The translations under genes and the position numbers were made by a program. Positions 38,166 through 51,173 of a stretch of DNA of 57,994 nucleotides are shown piece after piece. Origin of the DNA: a virus; the IMG/VR virus record IMGVR_UViG_3300044971_003295, positions 1 through 57,994 of that record; one strand, given 5' to 3'. Within the stretch, counting starts at the first letter, position 1, and each line of letters begins with the position of its first letter. The notes below the pieces were generated by a model. The model made no database searches and was not told the DNA's origin. It saw only the letters and a program-made list of their open reading frames with translations.

Positions 38166-38192
38166 CAACCCGAGCAAGTTGTAAAACTGCTC
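38166..38192 (+). ncRNA. H-type pseudoknot 1
   Basis: Stem 1 CAAC (38166-38169)/GTTG (38178-38181); stem 2 GAGCA (38172-38176)/TGCTC (38188-38192); A-rich loop 3. A competing CCCGAG/CTCGGG stem (38169-38174 with 38200-38205) is possible here only. Confidence 0.75.
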
Positions 38193-38206
38193 ACCACGCC
38201 TCGGGC

Positions 38207-38255
38207 GGAAAAATAAAAAATTTTTGCTGCTACGCAGCAAAAAATAAAAAATAAA
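38207..38255. repeat. A-rich block with CTNCG palindrome
   Basis: Perfect 10-bp stem TTTTTGCTGC/GCAGCAAAAA with loop TAC (38221-38243), flanked by AAATAAAA. Confidence 0.85.
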
Positions 38256-38290
38256 AGCCTCATTTATAAAATGAACCCGCCGACCCCGAC

Positions 38291-38342
38291 TTGCTAATGT
38301 CGCCCAAGTGTGTTTAGATTGTAGTGTGGAACAACCCCCACA
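38291..38342 (+). promoter_or_regulatory. cassette promoter and 5' stem-loop
   Basis: TTGCTA, 17 nt, TTAGAT; TGTGG/CCACA stem (38325-38342) starts at the predicted +1. Upstream box CATTTATAAAA then CGCCGACCCCGA. Confidence 0.7.
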
Positions 38343-38357
38343 AATGAGGAGAACAAA

Positions 38358-38801
38358 ATGTCGGAAACTAACTACAACCCAGACTTCCTAACCGAAGACC
38401 AAATCCGTATCAACTTGCTACAAGAGCAAGCAACAGCACAGGCAACAGAGTTGTCGAACACCATTGACCGCCTAAAATCAAAGACACAGCGAGTAAGCGA
38501 CCTCAATGATGAAAAGTATCGTGCCTTTGAGATTATCAAAGACGCAATCGAAAGCGACGACATTGAGGCTGACGCTGATTGGCTCAAAGAAGTTGCCGAG
38601 GTATTCAGTTGGGAACTCAAACGAGAAGTAAATGTGAGGTTCACAATCACAGGAACGGCTAGTGTAAGTCTGCCTTACGGCAAGGAACTAAGCGACTTCT
38701 CTTTCAGTTCGTCAGATGTTTCGATTGATTGTGATGGCTGGAACAATGATGCCGAGGTATCTGTCGAAGACCACCAACTCGAAGACATAGACGAAGAGTA
38801 A
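38358..38801 (+). CDS. hypothetical coiled-coil protein
   Basis: A 147-residue protein. N-terminal coiled coil (DQIRINLLQEQATAQATELS...) and a beta-rich, acidic C-terminus (FTITGTASVSLPYGKELSDF). Similar architecture is common in actinophage early genes. GAGGAGAAC upstream. Confidence 0.7.
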   Translation: MSETNYNPDFLTEDQIRINLLQEQATAQATELSNTIDRLKSKTQRVSDLNDEKYRAFEIIKDAIESDDIEADADWLKEVAEVFSWELKREVNVRFTITGTASVSLPYGKELSDFSFSSSDVSIDCDGWNNDAEVSVEDHQLEDIDEE

Positions 38802-38807
38802 ACCTGC

Positions 38808-38834
38808 GACCTGAGCAAGTCCTAAAACTGCTCA
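38808..38834 (+). ncRNA. H-type pseudoknot 2
   Basis: Stem 1 GAC/GTC (38808-38810, 38819-38821); stem 2 TGAGCA/TGCTCA (38812-38817, 38829-38834). Starts 6 nt after the stop. Confidence 0.75.
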
Positions 38835-38849
38835 ACAAACACCGCCGCG

Positions 38850-38900
38850 AAAAATAAAAAATTTTACGGGGCTACGCCCCGTAAAAATAAAAATCAAAAT
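38850..38900. repeat. A-rich block with CTNCG palindrome
   Basis: 11-bp stem TTTTACGGGGC/GCCCCGTAAAA, loop TAC (38862-38886). Confidence 0.85.
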
Positions 38901-38933
38901 CTTCATTTATAAATGAACACGCCGACCCCCGAC

Positions 38934-38991
38934 TTGACTTATGTTGCGTTGTGTGGTTTGATTATAGAGTAGGGCAAATCGACAATCCTAC
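38934..38991 (+). promoter_or_regulatory. cassette promoter and 5' stem-loop
   Basis: TTGACT, 17 nt, TTTGAT; GTAGG/CCTAC stem at 38969-38991. Confidence 0.7.
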
Positions 38992-39007
38992 AAAGGAGAT
39001 GGTTGCT

Positions 39008-39355
39008 ATGAGCAACGACAACAACGAGGGTGTAAAGCCCGACAACATTTCAGACAGCCCTGAAATTGTTGTTATCACCAGCACCAAAGTTCGCAAGGCT
39101 CACGCCGACTTTGTTCAGGCAAAGTTAGACGAGAACAACGCAAAGGAACGCAAGGCAAAAGCCGAGGCAATTCTTCGTGAGGCTCTCGGTGAGTTCGGCA
39201 AAGTTGGATACTTTGGCAAGACCAAAGCGTTCAGCCTTGTATCAAGCAAGAACACCAGCGTCAAGCGTGATGTTCTAGAAGAAAAATACCCTGTCGCTTT
39301 CGCAGACGAAGAAGTGTGGAACATCACTCCTTACGACTACATACGCACAGCGTAG
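39008..39355 (+). CDS. hypothetical protein
   Basis: A 115-residue protein from ATG 39008 (AAAGGAG nine bases upstream). Helical and charged (KVRKAHADFVQAKLDENNAK), then FGKVGYFGKTKAFSL. Function unknown. Confidence 0.7.
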   Translation: MSNDNNEGVKPDNISDSPEIVVITSTKVRKAHADFVQAKLDENNAKERKAKAEAILREALGEFGKVGYFGKTKAFSLVSSKNTSVKRDVLEEKYPVAFADEEVWNITPYDYIRTA

Positions 39356-39361
39356 TTCTTC

Positions 39362-39390
39362 ACAACCTAAGCAAGTTGTAAAAAGGCTTA
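39362..39390 (+). ncRNA. H-type pseudoknot 3
   Basis: Stem 1 ACAAC/GTTGT (39362-39366, 39375-39379); stem 2 TAAGC/GCTTA (39368-39372, 39386-39390), a double change that keeps pairing. A further AGGTGTG/CACACCT hairpin lies at 39414-39437. Confidence 0.8.
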
Positions 39391-39450
39391 CCTTGTTAGG
39401 TTGGGTAGGTGGTAGGTGTGTTCTGTGAGGCACACCTATCACCGCCGCCG

Positions 39451-39580
39451 AAAAATAAAAAATTTCCGCTACGCGGAAATAAAAATAAATTTTCCGCTAC
39501 GCGGAAAAATAAAAAAAATAAATTTCCTCGTTAGCGGGGCTACGCCCCGCGACCGAGGAAATAAAAAATAAAATCAAAAC
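39451..39580. repeat. A-rich block with three CTNCG palindromes
   Basis: Stems at 39462-39480, 39490-39508 and a two-part stem at 39523-39561 (outer TTTCCTCG/CGAGGAAA, inner GCGGGGC/GCCCCGC), all with loop TAC. Confidence 0.85.
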
Positions 39581-39613
39581 CATCATTTATAAAAATGACG
39601 CCGCCGACCCCGT

Positions 39614-39665
39614 TTGCGTATCGTTGCGTTTTGTGGTTAGATTATAGTGTGAGGACAATCTCACA
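39614..39665 (+). promoter_or_regulatory. cassette promoter and 5' stem-loop
   Basis: TTGCGT, 17 nt, TTAGAT; TGTGAG/CTCACA stem at 39648-39665. Confidence 0.75.
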
Positions 39666-39679
39666 AGAAACGAGGAAAA

Positions 39680-40021
39680 ATGTCGGAAAAGGTTATCATC
39701 ACAATCCAAATGGACGCTCAGGAAGTCTGGTCTAATGTGCTAGGTTCTGCTTGGGAAGATTGGGATTGGTGGGAAAAAATCAAATACAGCGAAGGTTCTG
39801 ATTGGGATAAGGTAGGCGAAATTACGCTTTCGATTACCGACCCAAATGACGAGGAAAAGGTTATTACCAAAACCCTCGGCGTTCAGGATTTGGCAAAGGC
39901 TTACGCCGAGTTAGCCTCTAAGAACTACGGCGGAACAAATCTAGACATACACGACCTAGACGCTGTGTATGGCGATTGCGTCTTACAGCAAGCAGTTCTC
40001 GGTGATGTTGTCTATGGATAA
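39680..40021 (+). CDS. hypothetical protein
   Basis: A 113-residue protein (MSEKVIITIQMDAQEVWSNV...). Trp-rich acidic middle (AWEDWDWWEKIKY). CGAGGAAAA upstream. Function unknown. Confidence 0.65.
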   Translation: MSEKVIITIQMDAQEVWSNVLGSAWEDWDWWEKIKYSEGSDWDKVGEITLSITDPNDEEKVITKTLGVQDLAKAYAELASKNYGGTNLDIHDLDAVYGDCVLQQAVLGDVVYG

Positions 40022-40052
40022 CACTCGACAATCGTTGAGGAAGATAGCCCGA

Positions 40053-40094
40053 GTGTTCTACGGAATAGGAAACTTTTTTATGTCCGTAGAACAC
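40053..40094 (+). other. intercistronic hairpin
   Basis: GTGTTCTACGGA and TCCGTAGAACAC pair perfectly (12 bp) around an 18-base loop containing TTTTTT, between two genes of one cassette. Confidence 0.65.
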
Positions 40095-40129
40095 AGGGTT
40101 TATCTGAAACAACGCAGAAAGGAAAAGTA

Positions 40130-40504
40130 ATGAAAACGAGTTGGGATACAAACCGCAAAAAGAACCTAATTCCGAATTACAAGATTGACGAAAAACTAAA
40201 AACCTTTGAGAGTTTTGAGAATTACAACAGAACTATCACCGCTGTTCGTAATGGCTCTCTCTACTCAATCACTCATTGGGATACAGTAATTCTGAATTAT
40301 GATGTTGATAACTCAGAAATCTTGTTCTTCCGGTCTTACTACATCAGCAACACAACAAGTAAATTGGTTGGCAGACTTATCCGAGCATTTCCGCAAGGAA
40401 CTTTTGATAGACTGCTAGAACGGCAACGACCACAAGACCGCTCACGCCTAATGCGTATGCGTAAAGGCAGTAGCAACCAACAGCCAGAAATCATTTACGC
40501 CTAA
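40130..40504 (+). CDS. hypothetical protein
   Basis: A 124-residue basic protein (MKTSWDTNRKKNLIPNYKID...). SITHWDTVILNYDVDNSEIL suggests a beta domain. AAAGGAAAAG upstream. Function unknown. Confidence 0.65.
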   Translation: MKTSWDTNRKKNLIPNYKIDEKLKTFESFENYNRTITAVRNGSLYSITHWDTVILNYDVDNSEILFFRSYYISNTTSKLVGRLIRAFPQGTFDRLLERQRPQDRSRLMRMRKGSSNQQPEIIYA

Positions 40505-40508
40505 CATT

Positions 40509-40547
40509 TGCCCTCACCGCAAGGTGGGGGCATTTGGCGTTCCAAAT
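40509..40547 (+). terminator. 3' hairpins
   Basis: TGCCC.CACC GCAA GGTG.GGGCA (GNRA loop, 40509-40532), then ATTTGG/CCAAAT (40532-40547) and an A-rich block. Confidence 0.65.
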
Positions 40548-40605
40548 AAAAAATAAAAAATAAAATCAAAAGCCTCATTTAGAAAAAGACACCGCCAGCC
40601 CCGAG

Positions 40606-40657
40606 TTGCGAAATGTCGTAGGTTCGTGAGAAGATTATTATGCGAGTATCTCTCGCA
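40606..40657 (+). promoter_or_regulatory. cassette promoter and 5' stem-loop
   Basis: TTGCGA, 18 nt, GAAGAT; TGCGAG/CTCGCA stem at 40641-40657. Confidence 0.65.
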
Positions 40658-40675
40658 GAAAACGAGGTGATTACT

Positions 40676-40924
40676 ATGGCAGAAATGCCCAATCTACACA
40701 TCTGGACTTCTAACCACACTTACTTACGAGATGGCACAAATCAAGTAAGTATGAGCGTTAGAACCTACATCAAAAACCTTGATGATGACTACAACAACAG
40801 CACAGCAATTTCCGAGGCACAAGTTATTTTTAGCGTTGAGGGATTTGCTAGGTTTGTCGGAGAGATGAACGAACATCTCGAAAAAATCAAGGCTGAGGTA
40901 GCCGAGGTTTCCGAAGTAGCGTAG
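40676..40924 (+). CDS. small hypothetical protein
   Basis: An 82-residue protein from ATG 40676 (CGAGGTG upstream). LHIWTSNHTYLRDGTNQVSM, then a helical end. Function unknown. Confidence 0.65.
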   Translation: MAEMPNLHIWTSNHTYLRDGTNQVSMSVRTYIKNLDDDYNNSTAISEAQVIFSVEGFARFVGEMNEHLEKIKAEVAEVSEVA

Positions 40925-40965
40925 CCAGACCCAAGCCCACCCGAAAGGGTGGGTGAGGGGTCGGC
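40923..40965 (+). terminator. 3' compound hairpin
   Basis: CCCACCC GAAA GGGTGGG inside an outer GACCC/GGGTC stem, beginning at the stop codon. Confidence 0.7.
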
Positions 40966-41053
40966 AAAAATAAAAAATTTTGCGCTACGCGCAAAAATAA
41001 AAAAAAATAGAATTACACCGCTGCGCGGTGAAATTCTAAATAAAAAATAAAAA
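40966..41053. repeat. A-rich block with two CTNCG palindromes
   Basis: TTTTGCGC/GCGCAAAA, loop TAC (40978-40996), and TAGAATT.CACCGC/GCGGTG.AATTCTA, loop TGC (41008-41038). Confidence 0.85.
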
Positions 41054-41086
41054 CCTTCATTTATAAAATGAACGCCGTCGCCCCGT

Positions 41087-41138
41087 TTGCGTAATGTCGC
41101 CATTTCCGATAAACTAGAACTACGGAGTGTGTCCGTAG
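41087..41138 (+). promoter_or_regulatory. cassette promoter and 5' stem-loop
   Basis: TTGCGT, 17 nt, TAAACT; CTACGGA/TCCGTAG stem at 41120-41138. Confidence 0.75.
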
Positions 41139-41151
41139 AAAACGAGGAGTA

Positions 41152-41373
41152 ATGAGTTGTAAGTGTGAAGACCGCCCCGCTTGCGGTTGCCTTAGCGAAA
41201 GCGGATACTACGATTACGCCGACCCACACGACTACGCAGACGAACAGCGTGAAAAGATGTTCTCTGACGAAGACGGCTGTGAAATGTGCGGTGTTCGCTG
41301 GAACAGGCAAGACAACGAAGACGACATAACTCAGGGTTTCCACGCTGAGTGTGCCGACACTATCGTAATCTAA
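41152..41373 (+). CDS. small Cys-rich protein
   Basis: A 73-residue protein (MSCKCEDRPACGCLSESGYY) with a later CEMCGVRW, likely zinc-binding. GAGGAG upstream. Confidence 0.65.
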   Translation: MSCKCEDRPACGCLSESGYYDYADPHDYADEQREKMFSDEDGCEMCGVRWNRQDNEDDITQGFHAECADTIVI

Positions 41374-41381
41374 CAAAAACC

Positions 41382-41409
41382 TAACCTGAGTAAGTTATCA
41401 AACTGCTCA
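41382..41409 (+). ncRNA. H-type pseudoknot 4 (intercistronic)
   Basis: Stem 1 TAAC/GTTA; stem 2 TGAGTA/TGCTCA with a U-G wobble. The next gene's ribosome site follows 14 nt later. Confidence 0.8.
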
Positions 41410-41434
41410 CCCAACAAAAATGAGAGGAAACAAA

Positions 41435-41599
41435 GTGCCAAAATACAGAATAACCTCAACTATTCAGTTTGAGTTTGAGGGAGAGTTTGCCAACGAAGCA
41501 GAAGCAGAAAAGTTTGCTGGCAACTACGACAACCTACAATACTCAATGCCTGTCGAACTAGACATTGAGGAACTAGAAGACGAGGAAGAAGATGAGTGA
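41435..41599 (+). CDS. small acidic protein
   Basis: A 54-residue protein from GTG 41435 (GAGAGGAAAC upstream): MPKYRITSTIQFEFEGEFAN, then an acidic end. Overlaps the next gene by 8 nt. Confidence 0.6.
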   Translation: MPKYRITSTIQFEFEGEFANEAEAEKFAGNYDNLQYSMPVELDIEELEDEEEDE

Positions 41600-41843
41600 A
41601 ACCAGAGAAAACCCATACTTGTCTTACTCGCTAGATAGTCTAGGAACTATCGCACAGCAATACGCTCTAATGCTTGGTGGTGGGCAAACCACGCTAGGCA
41701 ACGGCGACAATCTAGGCGAGGCATACGAACAAGTATGCGAGGCAATCGAAAGTCGTCAGGAAACGGATTATTGTAAGCACGGAAACTTCCGTTGGACAGA
41801 CCACGATATTCCTTGCGGTGCTTGCGAGTTTGGCGAGGACTAA
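41592..41843 (+). CDS. small hypothetical protein
   Basis: An 83-residue protein (MSETRENPYLSYSLDSLGTI) with CKHGNFRWTDHDIPCGACEF at the end, a possible zinc site. Function unknown. Confidence 0.65.
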   Translation: MSETRENPYLSYSLDSLGTIAQQYALMLGGGQTTLGNGDNLGEAYEQVCEAIESRQETDYCKHGNFRWTDHDIPCGACEFGED

Positions 41844-41848
41844 CCAGC

Positions 41849-41886
41849 AACCAGATACCAGCCGAAAGGTTGGTATTTGGTGTTGC
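41849..41886 (+). terminator. 3' hairpin with GAAA loop
   Basis: ATACCAGCC GAAA GGTTGGTAT inside GCAAC/GTTGC. Confidence 0.65.
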
Positions 41887-41935
41887 GAAAAATAAAAAAT
41901 TTGCTTCGCAAATAAAAAATAAAAATCAAAAGCAC
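41887..41935. repeat. A-rich block with CTNCG palindrome
   Basis: ATTTGC/GCAAAT, loop TTC (41899-41913). Confidence 0.8.
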
Positions 41936-41963
41936 AGATAAAAAAGCATCGCCAGCCCGCCGC

Positions 41964-42016
41964 TTGACTTTCCAAGCGTTTCGTAGTTAGATAGTAATGT
42001 GAGGACTACACTCACA
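41964..42016 (+). promoter_or_regulatory. cassette promoter and 5' stem-loop
   Basis: TTGACT, 17 nt, TTAGAT; TGTGAG/CTCACA stem at 41998-42016. Confidence 0.75.
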
Positions 42017-42034
42017 GAAAACGAGGATAGTAGT

Positions 42035-42319
42035 ATGTGCGACAACCCTGAACACAACCACGAAATACCTGAAATGAGCGAGGCAGAAGTAGAAAAACTG
42101 TTTATGCTCGCAGGTGCGTTGGTGCTAGGTATTCAGTATTCCTTTGACCCGTCAGTAAATTTCCAAGAAGCACCAGAGGAAATTATAGAAATGGGGAAAT
42201 GGGAAATGATGGTCAGAACCATAAGTATCAAAAACGAACTAGGTGAACTGATAGACACAATCCTAGAACGGCAAAGCGACAACAAATTTGAGAACATAAT
42301 CAAAGACTTTGATTTGTAA
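42035..42319 (+). CDS. small hypothetical acidic protein
   Basis: A 94-residue protein from ATG 42035 (CGAGGATAG upstream). MCDNPEHNHEIPEMSEAEVE could bind metal through Cys and His; the rest is helical. Confidence 0.65.
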   Translation: MCDNPEHNHEIPEMSEAEVEKLFMLAGALVLGIQYSFDPSVNFQEAPEEIIEMGKWEMMVRTISIKNELGELIDTILERQSDNKFENIIKDFDL

Positions 42320-42324
42320 GAGCA

Positions 42325-42352
42325 CGACCTAAGCAAGTCGCAAAAAGGCTTA
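42325..42352 (+). ncRNA. H-type pseudoknot 5 (intercistronic)
   Basis: Stem 1 CGAC/GTCG; stem 2 TAAGC/GCTTA. Starts 5 nt after the stop, before the next gene's GAGAGGAAC. Confidence 0.8.
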
Positions 42353-42381
42353 CCCACCTAAACGAGAGGAACAGATAACTA

Positions 42382-42723
42382 ATGGCAGACTTTTACGGCG
42401 TATCAGTTTTGCTACCCCACGCAAAGGCTATTGCTTGGGATACTTGCCACAAGATTTATATCTTGATGGACAACGAACAAGTAATAAAAATGCGTGAATA
42501 CGGCTACGGCGACGAAAATGACCCAGACAGCCTAATCACCGCAGAGCAAATGACCAAGCAAGAAATGTTAGACACTATCCAAAAGTGGTATAACAGCAGT
42601 TGCTCATTACGCTTTATCAACGCAGTATCAACTGTGCCAGAAGGCACAGACCCAAATGAAGGGTTCGAAGTTATTATCGGTCAATTTGACGACGAGGACG
42701 ACGACACCGACGACGAGTATTAG
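42382..42723 (+). CDS. hypothetical acidic protein
   Basis: A 113-residue protein (MADFYGVSVLLPHAKAIAWD...) ending in a run of Asp (DDEDDDTDDEY). Function unknown. Confidence 0.65.
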   Translation: MADFYGVSVLLPHAKAIAWDTCHKIYILMDNEQVIKMREYGYGDENDPDSLITAEQMTKQEMLDTIQKWYNSSCSLRFINAVSTVPEGTDPNEGFEVIIGQFDDEDDDTDDEY

Positions 42724-42733
42724 ACCCCCCTCG

Positions 42734-42761
42734 CAACCTGAGCAAGTTGATAAACTGCTCA
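42734..42761 (+). ncRNA. H-type pseudoknot 6
   Basis: Stem 1 CAAC/GTTG; stem 2 TGAGCA/TGCTCA. Confidence 0.75.
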
Positions 42762-42777
42762 CTAAACACACCGCCGC

Positions 42778-42840
42778 AAAAATAAAAAATTGCGCTCCGC
42801 GCAAAAAATAAAATTGCCGCTGCGCGGCAAAATAAAAATC
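42778..42840. repeat. A-rich block with two CTNCG palindromes
   Basis: TTGCGC/GCGCAA, loop TCC (42790-42804); TTGCCGC/GCGGCAA, loop TGC (42814-42830). Confidence 0.85.
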
Positions 42841-42877
42841 AAAACCAGCATTTATAAAATGCAGGCCGTCGCCCTCG

Positions 42878-42928
42878 TTTGACGGACACGTCCGTTTGTG
42901 ACAGACTAGTTATGCGGACACCGTCCGT
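42878..42928 (+). promoter_or_regulatory. cassette promoter with operator-like dyad and 5' stem-loop
   Basis: TTGACG, 17 nt, CAGACT. ACGGACACGTCCGT overlaps the -35. The mRNA begins with TGCGGAC/GTCCGTA (42912-42928), nearly the same dyad. Confidence 0.7.
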
Positions 42929-42944
42929 AGAAATCGAGGACAAA

Positions 42945-43388
42945 TTGGAAACTGAAACAGAGAGAGTCTGTGTCTTAGAAATCAACTCAGACTGCACTTG
43001 CGAAGAGTATGACGAAGAAACAGGCGAAAGCAAAGTAGACGACAACGGCTATCCCGTTATGTCTAATTATTGCTACGGTTGCTACGATGACGACCTAGTG
43101 GCCTTGAAGTATGACGTATTACCTGAGTGGCTTGGAGCAAACGGTTGGGATACCGACACCAGAGTTACAATCAGAGGCTCAAGGATGGGTTGGACAAACG
43201 ATAGCGGGTATCTAACTACCACAATCGAATCAGCAGAAAAATTGCTTGATAAGTTGCGTATCAACGGCGACTACACCTTGCGATTCTATCGCAAGGGTAA
43301 GAACCTTGAAGTTGTAAGGTCAAGCCACGACGAACTTGGAGCGTTGTTTGAGTTTGAGTTAGCCGAAGAAAGTGATGAAGATTACTAA
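42945..43388 (+). CDS. hypothetical protein
   Basis: A 147-residue protein from TTG 42945 (CGAGGAC upstream; upstream ATGs lie in the 5' stem). CTCEEYDEETGESKVDDNGY and a CYGCYDDD segment, then RGSRMGWTNDSGYLTTTIES. The WTNDSGY region recurs in phage hypotheticals. Confidence 0.6.
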   Translation: METETERVCVLEINSDCTCEEYDEETGESKVDDNGYPVMSNYCYGCYDDDLVALKYDVLPEWLGANGWDTDTRVTIRGSRMGWTNDSGYLTTTIESAEKLLDKLRINGDYTLRFYRKGKNLEVVRSSHDELGALFEFELAEESDEDY

Positions 43389-43398
43389 CAGTAGTCTA

Positions 43399-43426
43399 CC
43401 TAGCCCTGCCGAAAGGCAGGGTTAGG
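43399..43426 (+). terminator. 3' hairpin with GAAA loop
   Basis: CCTA.CCCTGCC GAAA GGCAGGG.TAGG. Confidence 0.7.
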
Positions 43427-43439
43427 CCACTTGCGGCGG

Positions 43440-43485
43440 AAAAATAAAAAATGCGCTACGCGCAAAAATAAAAAATAAAAATCAA
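43440..43485. repeat. A-rich block with CTNCG palindrome
   Basis: TGCGC/GCGCA, loop TAC (43452-43464). Confidence 0.8.
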
Positions 43486-43520
43486 AAGCTCAATTAGAAA
43501 AGCATCGCCCGCCCGCCGAC

Positions 43521-43570
43521 TTGCGTAATGTTGCCGTTTGTGAAAGAATTGTCTTGCGGGACTATCCGCA
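43521..43570 (+). promoter_or_regulatory. cassette promoter and 5' stem-loop
   Basis: TTGCGT, 17 nt, AAGAAT; TGCGG/CCGCA stem at 43555-43570. Confidence 0.75.
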
Positions 43571-43584
43571 GAAACGAGGAAATC

Positions 43585-44052: not shown

Positions 44053-44058
44053 TAACCG

Positions 44059-45449: not shown

Positions 45450-45455
45450 CCCACG

Positions 45456-45477: not shown

Positions 45478-45490
45478 TTTGGCGTTTGCG

Positions 45491-45540
45491 GAAAATAAAA
45501 AAAATTCGCTGCGCGAATAAAATAAAAAATAAAAAATCAA
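45491..45540. repeat. A-rich block with CTNCG palindrome
   Basis: ATTCGC/GCGAAT, loop TGC (45504-45518). Confidence 0.8.
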
Positions 45541-45577
45541 AAAACACATTTACAAAAAACACGCCGCGCCCGCCCGT

Positions 45578-45662
45578 TTGACTTTCACCGCTATCGGTGG
45601 CAAACTATAAATGTAGAGCGGCGGCCTTTCGTTCCCCCCCCCCTGATACCGCCGCTCTACAC
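45578..45662 (+). promoter_or_regulatory. cassette promoter and long 5' stem-loop
   Basis: TTGACT, 17 nt, CAAACT; spacer dyad CACCG/CGGTG. A 13-bp stem TGTAGAGCGGCGG/CCGCCGCTCTACA (45612-45662) starts at +1 and has a loop with a long C-run. Confidence 0.8.
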
Positions 45663-45683
45663 CTACAAATCGAGAGGAATAAA

Positions 45684-46055
45684 ATGTCGCTAGATTGGAA
45701 CGCGTCAAAAGTCCCAAACATAGATTGGGACAACGAAGATGAGTCAAACCGAGTTGGTCGGTTCGCCTTTGTCTTGATGTTTCTCGGTATCGGTTCGGTA
45801 TCGGAAACCAATGTTGCCGAAGTAATTGTTCGCAACAAAATCCACGAGGCTTTGTTCGGGCCAGCGTATTACTACATAGACGAGGCCACAGGCGTTCGCA
45901 AGAGCGCTTACGACGCCGAGTTTATTCGCAAAATGGTCGGATACAGCACCAATGTTAGCACCGAGCCAAGAGCGAAGTGGCTAAAGCGTATGACCGACAG
46001 CGCAATCGCAGACCAAGTTAGGCAAGCCCCCCAAGCCGAGCCAGCGTTAGTCTAA
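45684..46055 (+). CDS. hypothetical protein
   Basis: A 123-residue protein from ATG 45684 (GAGAGGAAT upstream). VGRFAFVLMFLGIGSVSETN is hydrophobic; HEALFGPAYYYIDEATGVRK follows. Function unknown. Confidence 0.65.
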   Translation: MSLDWNASKVPNIDWDNEDESNRVGRFAFVLMFLGIGSVSETNVAEVIVRNKIHEALFGPAYYYIDEATGVRKSAYDAEFIRKMVGYSTNVSTEPRAKWLKRMTDSAIADQVRQAPQAEPALV

Positions 46056-46061
46056 GCACCA

Positions 46062-46088
46062 AGACCTGAGTATGTCTAAAACTGCTCA
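46062..46088 (+). ncRNA. H-type pseudoknot 8 (intercistronic)
   Basis: Stem 1 AGAC/GTCT; stem 2 TGAGTA/TGCTCA (U-G wobble). Confidence 0.8.
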
Positions 46089-46112
46089 CCCACTCCAACA
46101 GCAAGGACAAAA

Positions 46113-46292
46113 ATGCCAAAAAAATCAGTAGTTGATACGAGTGCCAAAGTGTGCGAAATGTGCCTACGAAATCCAGCAAAGGTTGATGTAGTAGTGCCAA
46201 TGGGCTTAGGCGAAAACTACGGCTGGGCTTATTGCGAAATGTCGCTATGCGCCGTATGTGTCGAAAGTCTGCCAGACCTGAAAACCAAATAG
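46113..46292 (+). CDS. small zinc-type protein
   Basis: A 59-residue protein with CEMCLRNPAKVDVVVPMG and CEMSLCAVCVESL. AAGGACAA upstream. Function unknown. Confidence 0.65.
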   Translation: MPKKSVVDTSAKVCEMCLRNPAKVDVVVPMGLGENYGWAYCEMSLCAVCVESLPDLKTK

Positions 46293-46297
46293 AACCG

Positions 46298-46323
46298 CAC
46301 CTGAGCAAGTGATAAAACTGCTC
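46298..46323 (+). ncRNA. H-type pseudoknot 9
   Basis: Stem 1 CAC/GTG; stem 2 GAGCA/TGCTC. Confidence 0.7.
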
Positions 46324-46326
46324 GCC

Positions 46327-46380
46327 TCAAAAAATAAAATAAAAAATTGCGCTCCGCGCAAAATAAAAAATAAAAGCAAA
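46327..46380. repeat. A-rich block with CTNCG palindrome
   Basis: TTGCGC/GCGCAA, loop TCC (46347-46361). Confidence 0.85.
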
Positions 46381-46415
46381 ATCCTCATTTAGAAAAGCAT
46401 CGCCGTCGCCGCCGT

Positions 46416-46467
46416 TTGCGAATGTCAGCGTTATGTGGCAAACTGATAGTGCGGAACAACCCCCGCA
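46416..46467 (+). promoter_or_regulatory. cassette promoter and 5' stem-loop
   Basis: TTGCGA, 17 nt, CAAACT; TGCGG/CCGCA stem at 46450-46467. Confidence 0.75.
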
Positions 46468-46480
46468 GAAATGAGCAATC

Positions 46481-47155
46481 GTGGAAACAGCAACTACCGC
46501 AACACTTGAGGTTCTAAATAAAATGTTCCTCGAAAACACTGGTCGCAGTTTTTTGGACAGTGGCAATGCCTACGGTCGGCACTTTGAACGCCAGCAGTCG
46601 ATTAGTAACGCCGAGCGTGAGCAGGGAAAAACCAGCGTCGATGAATGGGGAAACATCACCGTTCCATTATTCCCAGCAATTTCGGCTGTGGTTGAGTATG
46701 ACCCTGAACTAAATGAACAGTGGAAAAAATTCGATGCCGAACACCCTGACGATTCTTGGCACGATACGATGGGAATGTTCTTAGATGAACTAGGCGTTTC
46801 AAGGACTGGCGACCTTTACAGTGACAGTTTCCGCTACGGGGTCAATTCTTACAACAGCGAAAACTACCTGAGCCAAGATTTCCAAGCCGAGATTTTTGCT
46901 TACGGTTTCGAGATGTATGCCCTGCTTCAGATTCACGGTGGCACTGACATTCGCGGAGGATACACCGCACCCGTAGTGTTCAAGTGCGACTGGGAATCCT
47001 TAGTGACTCTAGGGCAGACAGCGTTCCTGAACTGTGCCGAATGTGATTTTGATTTAGTGATGAATGTTGTTGACGGTATCGTCGAATCAACTGACGACAT
47101 ACCTGACAACTGGGAACTGAAAAACGGTTGCCCACGCTGTAAATCGAAATTCTAA
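46481..47155 (+). CDS. hypothetical protein with C-terminal zinc ribbon
   Basis: A 224-residue protein from GTG 46481. FLNCAECDFDLVMNVVDG and NGCPRCKSKF near the C-terminus form a CxxC/CxxC ribbon. The ribosome site is weak (ATGAG). Function unknown. Confidence 0.65.
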   Translation: METATTATLEVLNKMFLENTGRSFLDSGNAYGRHFERQQSISNAEREQGKTSVDEWGNITVPLFPAISAVVEYDPELNEQWKKFDAEHPDDSWHDTMGMFLDELGVSRTGDLYSDSFRYGVNSYNSENYLSQDFQAEIFAYGFEMYALLQIHGGTDIRGGYTAPVVFKCDWESLVTLGQTAFLNCAECDFDLVMNVVDGIVESTDDIPDNWELKNGCPRCKSKF

Positions 47156-47165
47156 CCCCGAACCA

Positions 47166-47198
47166 CCGCCGAGCATTAGACCCCCTAATGCTCGGCGG
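47166..47198 (+). terminator. 3' hairpin with C-rich loop
   Basis: CCGCCGAGCATTAG/CTAATGCTCGGCGG, 14 bp, loop ACCCC. Confidence 0.75.
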
Positions 47199-47209
47199 AA
47201 TCGGCGTTC

Positions 47210-47262
47210 AAAAATAAAAAAATTCGCTACGCGAATAAAAATAAAAAATAAAAAATAAAATC
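47210..47262. repeat. A-rich block with CTNCG palindrome
   Basis: ATTCGC/GCGAAT, loop TAC (47222-47236). Confidence 0.8.
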
Positions 47263-47301
47263 AAAAGCTCAATTATAAATCGTCGTCGTCGGCCAGGTCG
47301 T

Positions 47302-47352
47302 TTGACTCGCGACCGCCGATGCGATAGTCTGGTGATGCGGGTCGCCCCCGCA
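47302..47352 (+). promoter_or_regulatory. cassette promoter and 5' stem-loop
   Basis: TTGACT, 17 nt, TAGTCT; spacer ends TCGC/GCGA; TGCGGG/CCCGCA stem at 47336-47352. Confidence 0.75.
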
Positions 47353-47366
47353 GAAAAGAGTGGAAA

Positions 47367-47798
47367 ATGATTGTACAAATTGTTGAAATGGAGAGAGACG
47401 AAGGTTGCGAGCACTTGGATGATGGCAAGTGCCAGCAGCACCGCATCGTTGGAGAAATCGACACAGACTCAGTGTTCTGGGCCTACGCCGAATTTCTAGA
47501 CAACGGCGAGTGGGTAAGAGATGACGGCGTTGTTTCTTACCAGCGCGACAGCATCGCCGTCCCTAACCTTGAGTATGACCCCGATGTTGCCTTGTTCTTT
47601 GCGGGTCAAGGTTTGGCCAAGGTTGGTGACACCAGAGATTATGACGATTGGGTCAAACTACAGAAACAGGTCAACTGGGAAAATCGAGTTGATGGCGAGT
47701 GCGAGATTTGCCACCACGCCTATCCAGCGAACTGCACTTGCCCGAGCGATGTGGACTGTCCAAATTGCTTAGCAGGCTCAGTCTGCATCTTTCACTAG
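47367..47798 (+). CDS. hypothetical Cys-rich protein
   Basis: A 143-residue protein with a C-terminal CEICHHAYPANCTCPSDVDC then PNCLAGSVC cluster, probably two zinc sites. N-terminus MIVQIVEMERDEGCEHLDDG. Function unknown. Confidence 0.65.
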   Translation: MIVQIVEMERDEGCEHLDDGKCQQHRIVGEIDTDSVFWAYAEFLDNGEWVRDDGVVSYQRDSIAVPNLEYDPDVALFFAGQGLAKVGDTRDYDDWVKLQKQVNWENRVDGECEICHHAYPANCTCPSDVDCPNCLAGSVCIFH

Positions 47799-47803
47799 CA
47801 ACA

Positions 47804-47831
47804 CCGCCTGAGTATGCGGAGAAACTGCTCA
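47804..47831 (+). ncRNA. H-type pseudoknot 10 (intercistronic)
   Basis: Stem 1 CCGC/GCGG, the most divergent stem; stem 2 TGAGTA/TGCTCA. Confidence 0.8.
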
Positions 47832-47852
47832 CCCAACAATAAGGAGAAACTG

Positions 47853-48014
47853 ATGACCAAAAAAGATTATCAACTTATCGCCCAAGCAATCGCTGATACT
47901 TGGTGCGATGCCGCGGCACAACTTGCCATTGCCGAGAACATCGCTAAAGCATTGGCAGACACCAACCCGTTATTTGATAGAGACCGCTTTCTAGCAATGT
48001 GCGGAGTGGCCTGA
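47853..48014 (+). CDS. small helical protein
   Basis: A 53-residue protein from ATG 47853 (AAGGAGAAAC upstream): MTKKDYQLIAQAIADTWCDA... Similar small helical proteins are common in actinophages. Function unknown. Confidence 0.65.
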   Translation: MTKKDYQLIAQAIADTWCDAAAQLAIAENIAKALADTNPLFDRDRFLAMCGVA

Positions 48015-48020
48015 ACCACG

Positions 48021-48040
48021 CCCCAGCCGAAAGGCTGGGG
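48021..48040 (+). terminator. 3' hairpin with GAAA loop
   Basis: CCCCAGCC GAAA GGCTGGGG. Confidence 0.75.
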
Positions 48041-48051
48041 AACAGGCGTTC

Positions 48052-48112
48052 AAAAAATAAAAATAAAAATAAAAATAAAAATTTACGGCTGCGCCGCAAA
48101 AATAAAAATAAA
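48052..48112. repeat. A-rich block with imperfect CTNCG palindrome
   Basis: TTTACGGC/GCCGCAAA, loop TGC, one A-C mismatch (48082-48100). Confidence 0.75.
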
Positions 48113-48147
48113 AGCTCATTTACAAAAAGCACGCGCCGCTCGGTCGT

Positions 48148-48176
48148 TTGCGTAATGTTGCGTTTCGTGGCAAACT
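48148..48176 (+). promoter_or_regulatory. cassette promoter
   Basis: TTGCGT, 17 nt, CAAACT; spacer and -10 contain TTGC...GCAA. No 5' stem here. Confidence 0.7.
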
Positions 48177-48211
48177 ATAAGAGCAGCACCACAACCAAAC
48201 AAGGAGATCAG

Positions 48212-48451
48212 ATGCAAATCACTCACGTAGCAAAGACGGACAGCGGAGATTACACAATTTCTTCGCTACCTTGCCCAAAGTGTTCGGTAGTATTCACCAC
48301 CGAAATCACGGGCGAGCAGTTGTTCAAAATCAACAACAACGCCCTAATTCAAGACATCGGCTTAGACCTTACCGCAGACCAGCGAGAGCAGTTTATCTCA
48401 GGGTATTGCGGAACGTGCTGGGCTGAAGAATTCTTTGGGGATGAGGACTAA
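48212..48451 (+). CDS. small zinc-type protein
   Basis: A 79-residue protein from ATG 48212 (AAGGAGATC upstream) with SLPCPKCSVVF and SGYCGTCWAEEFF, a zinc ribbon. The Lys-Asn-rich upstream frame is the A-rich repeat block, not protein. Overlaps the next ATG. Confidence 0.7.
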   Translation: MQITHVAKTDSGDYTISSLPCPKCSVVFTTEITGEQLFKINNNALIQDIGLDLTADQREQFISGYCGTCWAEEFFGDED

Positions 48452-48573
48452 TGGCACAAGCAGGATACATCAATTGCTCGGGCTGCGGGCGTTTGTTCAG
48501 CGCAGAGAGCAAAGATGAAATGGACTTGCTACTCTCGCACACCTGCGAAGACGAGGAAGGAGAAGAAGAATGA
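48451..48573 (+). CDS. very small zinc-type protein
   Basis: A 40-residue protein (MAQAGYINCSGCGRLFSAES...) with CxxC and a later HTC, like a single zinc finger, then an acidic end. Confidence 0.55.
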   Translation: MAQAGYINCSGCGRLFSAESKDEMDLLLSHTCEDEEGEEE

Positions 48574-48716
48574 ACCCCGAACTCGCGAAAAAATTCGTAG
48601 CAATTCTCAATGCTTACGAAGACCGAGAGATTAGTGCCGAAGAAGCACTAATCCGTATCCAAATCGCCGTAGCCAACGCTAACGAAGATGCGGAACACAA
48701 CGAAATCACTCTCTAA
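48570..48716 (+). CDS. small helical acidic protein
   Basis: A 48-residue protein (MNPELAKKFVAILNAYEDRE...). GAAGGAGAAG lies upstream inside the preceding gene. Function unknown. Confidence 0.55.
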   Translation: MNPELAKKFVAILNAYEDREISAEEALIRIQIAVANANEDAEHNEITL

Positions 48717-48727
48717 CGCTGCCCGAA

Positions 48728-48749
48728 GCCCACACCGAAAGGTGTGGGC
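48728..48749 (+). terminator. 3' hairpin with GAAA loop
   Basis: GCCCACACC GAAA GGTGTGGGC. Confidence 0.75.
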
Positions 48750-48761
48750 CTTGGCGTTTGC

Positions 48762-48820
48762 GAAAAATAAAAAAAAATAAAATTTGCGGCTGCGCCGCAA
48801 AAATAAAAAATAAAACCAAA
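48762..48820. repeat. A-rich block with CTNCG palindrome
   Basis: TTTGCGGC/GCCGCAAA, loop TGC (48783-48801). Confidence 0.85.
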
Positions 48821-48854
48821 AGCTCATTTACAAAAGACACGCCGCTCCGCCCGT

Positions 48855-48935
48855 TTGACTTCCGTTGCCGTATGTGGCAAACTAGTATTGCCAGGCAGTA
48901 AGTAATCCCCCCCCTTTCGTTGCTTACTGCCTGGC
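48855..48935 (+). promoter_or_regulatory. cassette promoter and long 5' stem-loop
   Basis: TTGACT, 17 nt, CAAACT; spacer dyad TTGCC/GGCAA. 13-bp stem GCCAGGCAGTAAG/CTTACTGCCTGGC (48890-48935) with a C-run loop. Confidence 0.8.
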
Positions 48936-48952
48936 CTTATCTAAGGAGATAG

Positions 48953-49135
48953 ATGACCACCGCAACCACCGACAGAATAGAAATGTTGAGCCGAAACTTG
49001 GCCAGACACCAAATCATTATTTCGCTACTAAGCAAAAAACAGAAATGCGATGAAAGCGAAAAACCCTGCGACATTTGCTACGGATTTGATTTAGCAATCA
49101 AACTTGTCCAAGACCAACTAGAACCCGAGAATTAG
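48953..49135 (+). CDS. small protein with Cys pair
   Basis: A 60-residue helical protein (MTTATTDRIEMLSRNLARHQ...) with KCDESEKPCDICYGF. AAGGAGATAG upstream. Function unknown. Confidence 0.6.
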   Translation: MTTATTDRIEMLSRNLARHQIIISLLSKKQKCDESEKPCDICYGFDLAIKLVQDQLEPEN

Positions 49136-49143
49136 GAGAACCA

Positions 49144-49311
49144 ATGATACCTTGCGAAGTGTGCGGAAAGGACACCGCCGACACAGGCGAGCCTTGTGAT
49201 GAGTGTATGAACCCGTCATTCACCAAGCCAGACTTTGGCAGCAGACCTGCTGATGAGTATTTCGCCTACATAAAGAGCGACGCTTACATCGCCTATCTCA
49301 ACAGCAACTAG
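49144..49311 (+). CDS. small zinc-type protein
   Basis: A 55-residue protein with MIPCEVCGKDTADTGEPCDE and CM, a CxxC...CxxC finger. AGGAGAACC spans the previous stop. Confidence 0.6.
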   Translation: MIPCEVCGKDTADTGEPCDECMNPSFTKPDFGSRPADEYFAYIKSDAYIAYLNSN

Positions 49312-49321
49312 CACCGAGCCG

Positions 49322-49345
49322 CCCTGCCACTTTCGAGTGGCAGGG
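49322..49345 (+). terminator. 3' hairpin with TTCG loop
   Basis: CCCTGCCACT TTCG AGTGGCAGGG. Confidence 0.75.
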
Positions 49346-49360
49346 TTTCGGCTTTGCGGA

Positions 49361-49428
49361 AAATAAAAATTGCTGCTCCGCAGCAAAAATAAAATTTGCT
49401 GCTCCGCAGCAAAAATAAAAATCTAAAA
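49361..49428. repeat. A-rich block with two CTNCG palindromes
   Basis: TTGCTGC/GCAGCAA (49370-49386) and TTTGCTGC/GCAGCAAA (49395-49413), loops TCC. Confidence 0.85.
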
Positions 49429-49462
49429 GCTCATTTATAAAAGACACGCGCCGCTCGGTCGT

Positions 49463-49491
49463 TTGACTAAGTGCCGTAATTGTGAAAGACT
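49463..49491 (+). promoter_or_regulatory. cassette promoter
   Basis: TTGACT, 17 nt, AAGACT. Confidence 0.7.
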
Positions 49492-49497
49492 ATTCTT

Positions 49498-49711
49498 GGA
49501 CCCAAACGCTGGCTGGTAAAGGCTATGGGCGTTGGCTATGGCGGTCATAGCAATCGGCTTACCAGAGCCGACACAAGATAGCGGAGAGAGTGAATAAAAT
49601 ACCGCTCGCGACCTTAGGCAGTTGCTACCGATTACAAGCCTATAACTGCGTAAGGTGCTAGGGAGAGCAACCCCCTAGCACCGAACTCCAACCCAACAAC
49701 AAGGAGATACA
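49498..49711 (+). ncRNA. long structured leader RNA
   Basis: A 214-nt non-coding leader, against 20-100 nt in other cassettes. Pairings: CTGGTAA/TTACCAG (49513-49519, 49559-49565), GCTATG/CATAGC (49535-49551), AGCGG/CCGCT (49580-49606), ACCTTA.GCAGTT/AACTGC.TAAGGT (49611-49656) and GGTGCTAGGG/CCCTAGCACC (49654-49682). The last two compete for GGT at 49654-49656. CGGCT/AGCCG (49555-49570) competes with the first. Riboswitch-like or sRNA; ligand unknown. Confidence 0.55.
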
Positions 49712-49954
49712 ATGCCAGAAACACAAATACTCGCAAGGTATGAAGAAGACGGGCTTGCCTGTGAGATTACTTGCGAAAACGGAGAGTATTGGTTTGTAGA
49801 TACTTACCGCACCACCGAAGATAACGAGATGGTATGGCTCAACAATACCGGCTCGCTTACCACCTACGCCGAAGCGTTCGACGCCTTCCGTCTAGACCTA
49901 GACTGCTTCTTCGGCAAGGAGTTTCACCCAACAATGCTAGTCCGCAACAAGTAG
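49712..49954 (+). CDS. small hypothetical protein
   Basis: An 80-residue protein (MPETQILARYEEDGLACEIT...). AAGGAGATAC upstream. Its expression may be controlled by the structured leader. Function unknown. Confidence 0.65.
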   Translation: MPETQILARYEEDGLACEITCENGEYWFVDTYRTTEDNEMVWLNNTGSLTTYAEAFDAFRLDLDCFFGKEFHPTMLVRNK

Positions 49955-49960
49955 CAACCA

Positions 49961-49990
49961 CCGACCCCTGCCGAAAGGCAGGGTGTTCGG
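49961..49990 (+). terminator. 3' hairpin with GAAA loop
   Basis: CCCTGCC GAAA GGCAGGG with outer CCGA/TCGG. Confidence 0.75.
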
Positions 49991-49995
49991 CGTTT

Positions 49996-50050
49996 CAAAT
50001 AAAAAATTTGCGGCTGCGCCGCAAAAAATAAAAAGCGGCTACGCCGCAAA
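49996..50050. repeat. A-rich block with two CTNCG palindromes
   Basis: TTTGCGGC/GCCGCAAA, loop TGC (50007-50025); GCGGC/GCCGC, loop TAC (50035-50047). Confidence 0.85.
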
Positions 50051-50090
50051 ATCAAAAGCTCATTTACAAAAGACACGCCGCTCCCCCGAT

Positions 50091-50119
50091 TTGCGAAGTG
50101 TGCCAAATTATGTAATGAT
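50091..50119 (+). promoter_or_regulatory. cassette promoter
   Basis: TTGCGA, 17 nt, AATGAT. No clear 5' stem. Confidence 0.65.
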
Positions 50120-50153
50120 TAGATGGGGAACTATCAAAAACAAGGAGAACCTG

Positions 50154-50420
50154 ATGAACAATCAACCACTCAGCGCCACAATCAACAAAGCCCGAGCAAT
50201 CACTTATGTTGCCAGCAACAACCCTGATGCCTTCACCACCGCTCAACTAATCCAGATTATCAAATACGCTAACGCTGTCCTTCACACCACCAGCATAGCC
50301 TTATACCCAGACGGCTTGCCGAAAACGCCTGCTGATGTGAAAGACCAACTAGAGTCAGTAATTGCCAGAGAAGTAGCAATCTTTGAGAGAGAAGTTAGAG
50401 CAACTCTGCCTAAATTCTAA
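50154..50420 (+). CDS. small helical protein
   Basis: An 88-residue protein from ATG 50154 (AAGGAGAACC upstream): MNNQPLSATINKARAITYVA..., helical and mildly basic. Function unknown. Confidence 0.65.
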   Translation: MNNQPLSATINKARAITYVASNNPDAFTTAQLIQIIKYANAVLHTTSIALYPDGLPKTPADVKDQLESVIAREVAIFEREVRATLPKF

Positions 50421-50422
50421 CC

Positions 50423-50464
50423 CCGAACTGCCCTGCCTAGTCCCCCCACTAGGCAGGGTTTCGG
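50423..50464 (+). terminator. 3' hairpin with six-C loop
   Basis: CCCTGCCTAGT/ACTAGGCAGGG, loop CCCCCC, with outer CCGAA/TTCGG. Confidence 0.8.
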
Positions 50465-50467
50465 CGT

Positions 50468-50548
50468 GAAAAAAATTTGCCGCTGCGCGGCAAAAAAATT
50501 TGCCGCTGCGCGGCAAAAATAATTTTGCGGCTGCGCCGCAAATAAAAT
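50468..50548. repeat. A-rich block with three CTNCG palindromes
   Basis: TTTGCCGC/GCGGCAAA twice (50476-50494, 50499-50517) and TTTGCGGC/GCCGCAAA (50524-50542), loops TGC. Confidence 0.85.
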
Positions 50549-50820
50549 CGCTCAACGCGCTTCGCTTGGCCGCCGCGATCTTCCCCGGGTCGATAGCTGA
50601 ACGCTCCTTCGTCGCTTTTCAGCCTCCCCGGGTTCAGACGCTGCTGCCTTCGCTTCGGCGTTTCGCGAATAAAAATGCCGCTTTGCTTCGCTCAGCTGCT
50701 TAGGTCTCCACGGCCGGCGGGCAATCCCGGCTTCGCTGCGCTCATCGGGATGCACCTTGGCCGGGTCGAACCACGCAGCCTCCGCTCGCGACGCGGCAAA
50801 ATAAAAAATAAAATCTAAAT
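50549..50820. repeat. GC-rich mosaic of short inverted repeats, non-coding
   Basis: About 250 bp of GC-rich DNA made of short palindromes such as CGCTTCGCTTGG, CGCTTCGGCG and CTTCGCTGCGCTC, with CTNCG centres. No frame has a ribosome site or protein-like content. It interrupts the A-rich block of one cassette and resembles 53284-53850. Confidence 0.6.
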
Positions 50821-50858
50821 CTAAATCTCATTTACAAAAGACACGCTGCTCCGCCCGT

Positions 50859-50908
50859 TTGACTAACGTGCCGTTTCGTGATTGACTTAGTGTGCGGGCA
50901 AGCCCGCA
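50859..50908 (+). promoter_or_regulatory. cassette promoter and 5' stem-loop
   Basis: TTGACT, 17 nt, TTGACT; TGCGGGC/GCCCGCA stem at 50893-50908 with two bases between the arms. Confidence 0.7.
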
Positions 50909-50926
50909 GAAAACGAGGTGATGTAA

Positions 50927-51139
50927 ATGAGTTTCGGAATTGATGTTCGGTATCCCGATGTCTTTGTCCAACTTACGGGCGAAGATGGGAACTCCGTTTC
51001 CATTATGGGTCGGGTTGCTAAGGCACTAAGAGATGCTGATGTGCCTAAGGAAGAAATTGACGAATACTACGCTCAATCAATGAGCGGAGATTACGACAAT
51101 CTTCTACGCACCGCTGCCGAGTGGGTATCGGTAGGGTAA
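50927..51139 (+). CDS. small hypothetical protein
   Basis: A 70-residue protein (MSFGIDVRYPDVFVQLTGED...) with AKALRDADVPKEEIDEYYAQ, a pattern of small actinophage proteins. CGAGGTGATG upstream. Confidence 0.65.
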   Translation: MSFGIDVRYPDVFVQLTGEDGNSVSIMGRVAKALRDADVPKEEIDEYYAQSMSGDYDNLLRTAAEWVSVG

Positions 51140-51145
51140 TCTCCA

Positions 51146-51173
51146 ACACCTGAGCAAGTGTCTAAAAGGCTCA
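51146..51173 (+). ncRNA. H-type pseudoknot 11 (intercistronic)
   Basis: Stem 1 ACAC/GTGT; stem 2 TGAGC/GCTCA. Confidence 0.8.

Follow-up and report, generated by a model that had tools for sequence, protein, structure and literature searches.

A small pseudoknot placed behind stop codons in phages of diverse bacteria

An H-type pseudoknot of 28 nucleotides (nt), located in most cases immediately behind the stop codons of unrelated genes, is common to phages of six or more bacterial groups. The family was noticed in a virus record of 57,994 bases (IMGVR_UViG_3300044971_003295, analysed over its full length and hereinafter called the window), which encodes a terminase, an endolysin, a single-stranded DNA-binding protein (SSB), a tmRNA and two tRNAs. 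An initial annotation, made from the letters alone, reported eleven copies in this record, and the presence of the pseudoknot family in the sequence is beyond doubt. With moderate confidence, we propose that the pseudoknot caps the 3' end of mRNA, blocking 3'-5' decay and insulating the cistron without stopping RNA polymerase.

Structure of the pseudoknot and its copies in the window

The unit consists of stem 1 (S1, positions 1-4 paired with 13-16), loop 1 (L1, position 5), stem 2 (S2, positions 6-11 paired with 23-28), loop 2 (L2, position 12) and loop 3 (L3, positions 17-22). In the main form, S1 has 4 bp, L1 is C, S2 has 6 bp, L2 is A or T, and the 6-nt L3 ends in AAAC; in the alternative form, AAAAG stands in place of AAACU and S2 has 5 bp. 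The pairing of S1 was assessed in 113 viral copies that were picked only by CCTGAGCAAG...AAACTGCTC, so that three of the four S1 pairs were unselected. These three pairs are Watson-Crick in 113/113, 111/113 and 87/113 copies (plus 9 GU pairs in the last case), compared with 54, 32 and 49 expected from composition; a fifth pair occurs at the expected frequency, and S1 is therefore 4 bp long.

For S2, the viral collection was scanned with altered patterns, the natural variation being read as a series of mutants. The G-C form (with a slightly looser pattern), the compensated A-U form and the second type with AAAAG are each found in at least 120 viral stretches, and a single A.C mismatch in S2 is found in 13 (a complete count), whereas a scrambled 3' arm of S2, the replacement of AAA by TTT in L3 and the replacement of C by A in L1 yield no matches in this collection. 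Given at least 120 matching stretches against none for the scrambled arm, the core is far beyond chance. The same contigs contain further, unselected copies with S2 pairs such as UGGGUA/UACCCA, UGGACA/UGUCCA and UAGGCA/UGCCUA. In a 92-row alignment, the rows of which were selected for pairing, 96% of the cells are paired, with 221 double changes versus 71 after shuffling. Thus, pairing is required, and with covariation in each of its two interleaved helices, the structure is an H-type pseudoknot. The C of L1 and the AAA of L3 are as strict as the pairing, which suggests a specific tertiary fold; the ends of S2 are strictly conserved as well.

A nested hairpin is a poor substitute for the pseudoknot. 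RNAfold favours S2 combined with an inner helix for some copies, but of 305 variants, only 15 could form the three inner pairs, compared with three S1 pairs in all 305; S1 was required for inclusion in this set, so the unbiased test of this stem is the one with 113 copies. Reversed sequences are unsuitable as a control because a mirrored pseudoknot still pairs.

A scan of the full window, with filters off, using a covariance model built from relatives (some window copies among them) yields exactly 11 matches, with 30-42 bits and E-values from 2e-9 to 3e-6; the next-best match has E=0.76. A separate search counted 12 matches in the window, one more than the full scan. All 11 pseudoknots are on the plus strand, between 38166 and 51173. 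The features are as follows.

38166..38193, plus strand: copy 1, 5 nt past TAG (gene end 38160), cassette end, 33.0 bits
38807..38834, plus strand: copy 2, 5 nt past TAA (gene end 38801), cassette end, 38.8 bits
39363..39390, plus strand: copy 3, second type (AAAAG, S2 UAAGC/GCUUA), 7 nt past TAG (39355), cassette end, 35.3 bits
41382..41409, plus strand: copy 4, 8 nt past TAA (41373), between two genes of one cassette, 38.7 bits
42325..42352, plus strand: copy 5, second type, 5 nt past TAA (42319), inside cassette, 35.0 bits
42734..42761, plus strand: copy 6, consensus form, 10 nt past TAG (42723), cassette end, 42.1 bits
44640..44667, plus strand: copy 7, 13 nt past TAA (44626), 3' of a DUF3846 gene, cassette end, 31.8 bits
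46062..46088, plus strand: copy 8, 6 nt past TAA (46055), inside cassette, 30.2 bits
46297..46324, plus strand: copy 9, 4 nt past TAG (46292), cassette end, 35.7 bits
47804..47831, plus strand: copy 10, 5 nt past TAG (47798), inside cassette, 35.1 bits
51146..51173, plus strand: copy 11, second type, 6 nt past TAA (51139), inside cassette, 38.0 bits
40509..40532, plus strand: GC-rich hairpin, no pseudoknot, in the same slot, 4 nt past the stop at 40504
Past the stops at 40924, 41843, 43388, 44052, 45449, 47155, 48014, 49311 and 50420: similar hairpins

The eleven sites proposed by the initial annotation thus all hold a copy, with starts shifted by at most 1 nt, and the division into five copies inside cassettes and six at cassette ends is likewise confirmed, the cassettes being delimited by predicted promoters. 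The distances between the stop codon and S1 (in order, 5, 5, 7, 8, 5, 10, 13, 6, 4, 5 and 6 nt) span 4-13 nt rather than the 5-14 nt originally given; the exclusive use of TAA or TAG stops is borne out in 11/11 copies. The notion of a single recurring core needs revision: the literal CCTGAGCAAG...AAACTGCTCA is exact in two copies only (38807 and 42734), and three copies (39363, 42325 and 51146) belong to the second type, AAAAG followed by GCYYA, with a 5-bp S2. In copy 1, the first S2 pair is a C.A mismatch. The general description, namely an H-type fold in which S1 covaries freely and S2 changes without loss of pairing, together with an A-rich L3 and a position past the stop, applies far outside the window phage.

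Among the stop codons between 38 and 51 kb of the window, 11 are followed by the pseudoknot and 10 by a GC-rich hairpin at similar spacing, never by both, so the two structures are exchangeable in this slot. The structured boundaries inside cassettes all carry the pseudoknot (5/5, hypergeometric p ~0.02 by our own arithmetic, with predicted cassette borders). This exchange, together with the bias towards the interior of cassettes, suggests a common function at the ends of genes but a different effect on RNA polymerase. Between 40505 and 50450, the GC-rich hairpins at cassette ends lack U runs and are followed by AAAAATAAAAAAT tracts and short hairpins of the GCGC(T/A)CGCGC type ahead of the next promoter-like sequence. 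The SSB gene, which was said to lie upstream of the family, is indeed there (36941-37420), but its own end carries no pseudoknot: an ordinary, terminator-like hairpin with a T run is found at 37513-37546, unlike in the later cassettes.

Distribution and placement of the pseudoknot

One fully specified version of the pseudoknot is present in 66 viral stretches and accounts for 5 of 120 sampled stretches of the general pattern, which extrapolates, with a wide error, to about 1,600 viral stretches with the general pattern. In 47 viral records, there are 1-12 copies each, often clustered. A further 41 stretches are found in GTDB genomes, compared with about one expected by chance according to our own estimate; a search of plasmids produced no match. 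Copies in isolate phages cover Actinobacteria, Firmicutes, Alpha- and Gammaproteobacteria and Cyanobacteria, and crAss-like phages carry the pseudoknot too. The hosts of isolate phages with confirmed copies are Lentibacter, Roseobacter-group bacteria, Ruegeria, Erwinia, Moraxella, Arthrobacter, Corynebacterium, Bacillus, Anoxybacillus, Lactobacillus, Microcystis, Planktothrix, Acaryochloris and Cylindrospermopsis; named carriers include Arthrobacter phage Amigo, Lactobacillus phage Lj965, Ruegeria phage DSS3phi2 and Microcystis phage Ma-LMM01. BLAST matches from Phocaeicola, which lie within terminase, are not members of the family according to the covariance model.

An open reading frame (ORF) on the same strand ends within 30 nt upstream of 333 of 496 copies, compared with 56 for the opposite strand and 31 for random nearby positions, so that the element is specific to the RNA strand. 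The spacing, determined for 388 copies, is cut off sharply at 4-5 nt on the lower side, is most often 5 or 6 nt and declines gradually above that: there are no copies at 0-3 nt, 8 at 4 nt, 66 at 5 nt, 58 at 6 nt and 20 at 7 nt, with one at -1; a further 38 copies repeat the same pattern. A hard lower limit combined with a soft upper one looks like steric exclusion, not a tuned distance. With a 5-nt spacer and the stop codon in the A site, the first base of S1 falls near +12, counted from the P site, just outside the ribosomal helicase near +11. TGA stops are depleted ahead of the pseudoknot, with 12/232 compared with 261/1208 among uncoupled background genes, both counts being approximate given that the ORFs were called by length.

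The genes upstream are diverse and include those for ribonucleotide reductase (RNR), SSB, UvsX, DnaB, Hsp20, minor head proteins, DUF932 proteins and many uncharacterized proteins; among the neighbours, no preference for one gene family was found. Downstream of the 496 copies, a gene starts within 60 nt in 161 cases, a tRNA follows in 44 and a convergent gene in 84. The 5' ends of tRNAs lie 2-13 nt past the pseudoknot, tRNA-Asp occupying this position in many contigs; in Arthrobacter phages, the order is SSB, pseudoknot and tRNA-Gly, and in Corynebacterium phage P1201, the pseudoknot is followed by tRNA-Trp. In Roseobacter phage CRP-6, the pseudoknot is located between the genes for RNR and glutaredoxin, in that order, and in Lj965 and A403, between the minor head protein and scaffold genes. 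Generally, therefore, a structure is placed close behind the stops of unrelated genes, as in REP elements. In two groups of GTDB contigs from metagenome-assembled genomes (L127, L131, L132 and L155; L148, L151, L157 and L158), the sequence upstream of the pseudoknots is conserved within the group, and recurrent gene families are suggested for elements of Patescibacteria and other candidate phyla.

The possibility that the pseudoknot is a part of tmRNA was considered because two crAss-phage BLAST matches lie under annotated tmRNAs, and was rejected: ARAGORN found none in the 41 bacterial motif loci, and its call on crAssphage cr7_1 is a weak 'tmRNA*' that overlaps a tRNA. The pseudoknot is contained in the cr7_1 feature annotated as tmRNA (NC_055895.1:20629-20985), and this feature, which overlaps with a predicted tRNA-Cys, might be an annotation error. 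The tmRNA gene of the window is located elsewhere, at 10472-10806, and encodes the tag AESRSAFALAA; genes for tRNA-Met and tRNA-Leu are found close by, at 16648-16931.

In Ignavibacteria Ch128a (CP054675.1; locus L159, 1739-5930, and locus L164, 6723-6764), the pseudoknot is present in 5 of about 139 CRISPR spacers, always in one orientation, and several other spacers resemble 3'-end hairpins. The matches are spacers, not repeats, so the pseudoknot is not a CRISPR element. Given the Cas10 gene in this genome, an RNA-targeting type III system is possible, and the spacers would, if the array belongs to such a system, fit pseudoknots in phage transcripts; acquisition from RNA via RT-Cas1 was discounted, with no reverse transcriptase match in the Ch128a genome.

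Possible function

We infer that the pseudoknot is transcribed as part of the message and caps the upstream cistron from just past the stop codon. With the stop codon in the A site, the first S1 pair would be just outside the helicase at the mRNA entry, so that the pseudoknot could stay folded during translation and almost no single-stranded RNA would be left between it and the ribosome. A downstream endonuclease cut, RNase P cleavage at an adjacent tRNA or the end formed at a terminator would expose the pseudoknot, which would then stop 3'-5' exoribonucleases and save the ORF; RNase P acting at a tRNA 5' end would leave an mRNA whose new 3' end directly follows the pseudoknot. Unlike a terminator hairpin, the pseudoknot would not stop RNA polymerase and would therefore be usable inside cassettes. 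Among the roles listed in the initial annotation, 3'-end protection fits best, and we favour it because it explains all contexts, those with tRNAs included. Generic placement, the spacing edge, unrelated upstream genes, the slot shared with hairpins, the tRNA sites, the depletion of TGA, the strictness of L1 and L3 and the REP precedent count towards a cap, which together make it a reasonably plausible reading. Several observations weigh against it. S1 has only 4 bp and the nested energies are modest (about -2 to -6 kcal/mol for S2 alone), so any block would have to rest on tertiary structure; the strong conservation of the S2 sequence is more than a purely mechanical barrier would need; and the same positions would suit a function at the level of translation.

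Such a function is the main rival to the 3' cap, and we regard it as a serious, if clearly less probable, explanation. The pseudoknot would slow termination or recycling, lower expression, or keep ribosomes that have terminated from sliding on to the next start, and may thus control reinitiation. The sharp lower limit of the spacing at 4-5 nt speaks for an involvement of the ribosome, the window phage encodes its own tmRNA, and five window copies lie between genes of one cassette; in addition, REPs no more than 15 nt away from a stop are reported to stall ribosomes and reduce translation (PMC12306157, citing Liang 2015). Nevertheless, the upper tail of the spacing extends far past 15 nt, and a gene starts within 60 nt of only 161/496 copies, many others preceding tRNAs or convergent ends where there is nothing to insulate. 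Furthermore, the pseudoknot follows genes that are needed in quantity, such as those for RNR, SSB and head proteins.

The strict conservation of the L1 C, the L3 AAA and the S2 ends is also compatible with a binding site for a protein or a small ligand, i.e., an operator or a riboswitch, and there is a precedent in the phage T2/T4 gene 32 pseudoknot, an operator to which a protein binds (PMC3014915). This option appears unlikely. There is no gene or pathway common to the upstream or downstream sides, and a gene-specific operator or riboswitch, also among the roles initially listed, fits badly because the neighbours are unrelated from phage to phage. Moreover, with hosts that span six bacterial groups, a phage-borne ligand would have to be common to unrelated phages, and the 1-nt L2 leaves no obvious ligand pocket.

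Slightly less likely still is that the pseudoknot replaces the hairpin of an intrinsic transcription terminator. A run of five T within 18 nt follows 14/84 copies at convergent ends, T runs near the pseudoknot are enriched overall (26/207 versus 5.6 expected), and TTTTTG directly follows it in Lactobacillus phages. Inside operons, however, only 6/161 copies have a T run; in the window, none of the 11 copies does, and the five copies inside cassettes are followed by genes without an obvious promoter. The U run of a terminator is missing in the window and confined to a minority of copies elsewhere. Recoding, i.e., stop readthrough or frameshifting caused by a pseudoknot 5-8 nt downstream, has the same spacing as in retroviruses but is very improbable and largely refuted by the closed frames, given that translation past the stop would meet a further stop after a median of 9 codons in the zero frame and of 7 and 4 codons in the other two, that TGA, the leakiest stop, is depleted, and that 11/11 window copies use TAA or TAG. 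A mimic of a ToxI-type antitoxin was considered, but single scattered pseudoknots behind stops are unlike ToxI repeats.

Returning to the 3' cap, the breadth of the family allows a more general and more tentative proposal, namely that the pseudoknot is a host-independent RNA device of unrelated tailed phages, which, with its fixed fold at the edge of the terminating ribosome, splits transcripts into separately protected cistrons without termination. If so, it would be the bacterial analogue, at the 3' end, of viral RNAs that resist exonucleases, and one small RNA part would define message ends in phages from six or more bacterial groups and explain gene-by-gene mRNA stability in dense phage operons without terminators. 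A 28-nt portable 3' cap would then be available for synthetic biology, along with a gene-end marker for viral metagenomes. Overall, the initial interpretation is partly supported.

Relation to known RNA elements

No Rfam 15 family reaches the gathering score at any copy tested, and the initial annotation, which an existing family with this consensus would have refuted, therefore stands in this respect at Rfam's thresholds; GP20-b (RF03003), the nearest Rfam family, overlaps a corner of it. The pseudoknot appears to be undescribed within the open literature searched, a search that excluded the probable defining paper of GP20-b, which limits the claim of novelty. RF03003 matches copies from Lactobacillus phages exactly at the pseudoknot, with 24-26 bits (maximum 26.2), below the gathering score of 36.2 bits; it has no match in the window and none at threshold in the other copies tested, and, conversely, genuine GP20-b members are not found by our covariance model (E 0.13 or worse). 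GP20-b is likewise a phage RNA, located upstream of GP20-type scaffold genes in Firmicutes, and a comparable small pseudoknot, with an L3 of the UAAAA type, can be read in its first half, but GP20-b is 62 nt long and includes a second conserved module. Location upstream of a GP20/scaffold gene applies to the pseudoknot in Lactobacillus and Anoxybacillus phages but not in the window or in nearly all other cases. The two families may share an ancestor or a fold. In Firmicutes genomes with GP20-b (L430-L433), the second half also resembles a small pseudoknot (CGUGG/CCACG with a UAAAAAACGUA tail).

The T2/T4 gene 32 leader contains an H-type pseudoknot in which an S2 of 6-7 bp is spanned by a 1-nt L1 and L3 is A-rich. 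It thus resembles the window-type pseudoknot in topology, in its A-rich L3 and in its occurrence in phage mRNA, but is located in the 5' leader of a single gene rather than 3' of many unrelated genes, and it represses that one gene through gp32 (PMC3014915). STAXI is another pseudoknot-based motif found near phage and plasmid DNA-handling genes (PMC2864571), but it consists of tandem pseudoknots with UUCG loops, whereas the phage element is a single pseudoknot without UUCG that is tied to stops.

A functional precedent for a 3' cap is provided by the REP/BIME elements of E. coli, repeated structured RNAs soon after stops: REP hairpins in 3' untranslated regions block exoribonucleases and stabilise mRNA, thus protecting its 3' ends, and can also affect translation (PMC12306157). 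These elements are palindromic hairpins of bacterial chromosomes, whereas the phage element is a pseudoknot with a free S1 sequence, present in 1-12 copies per record.

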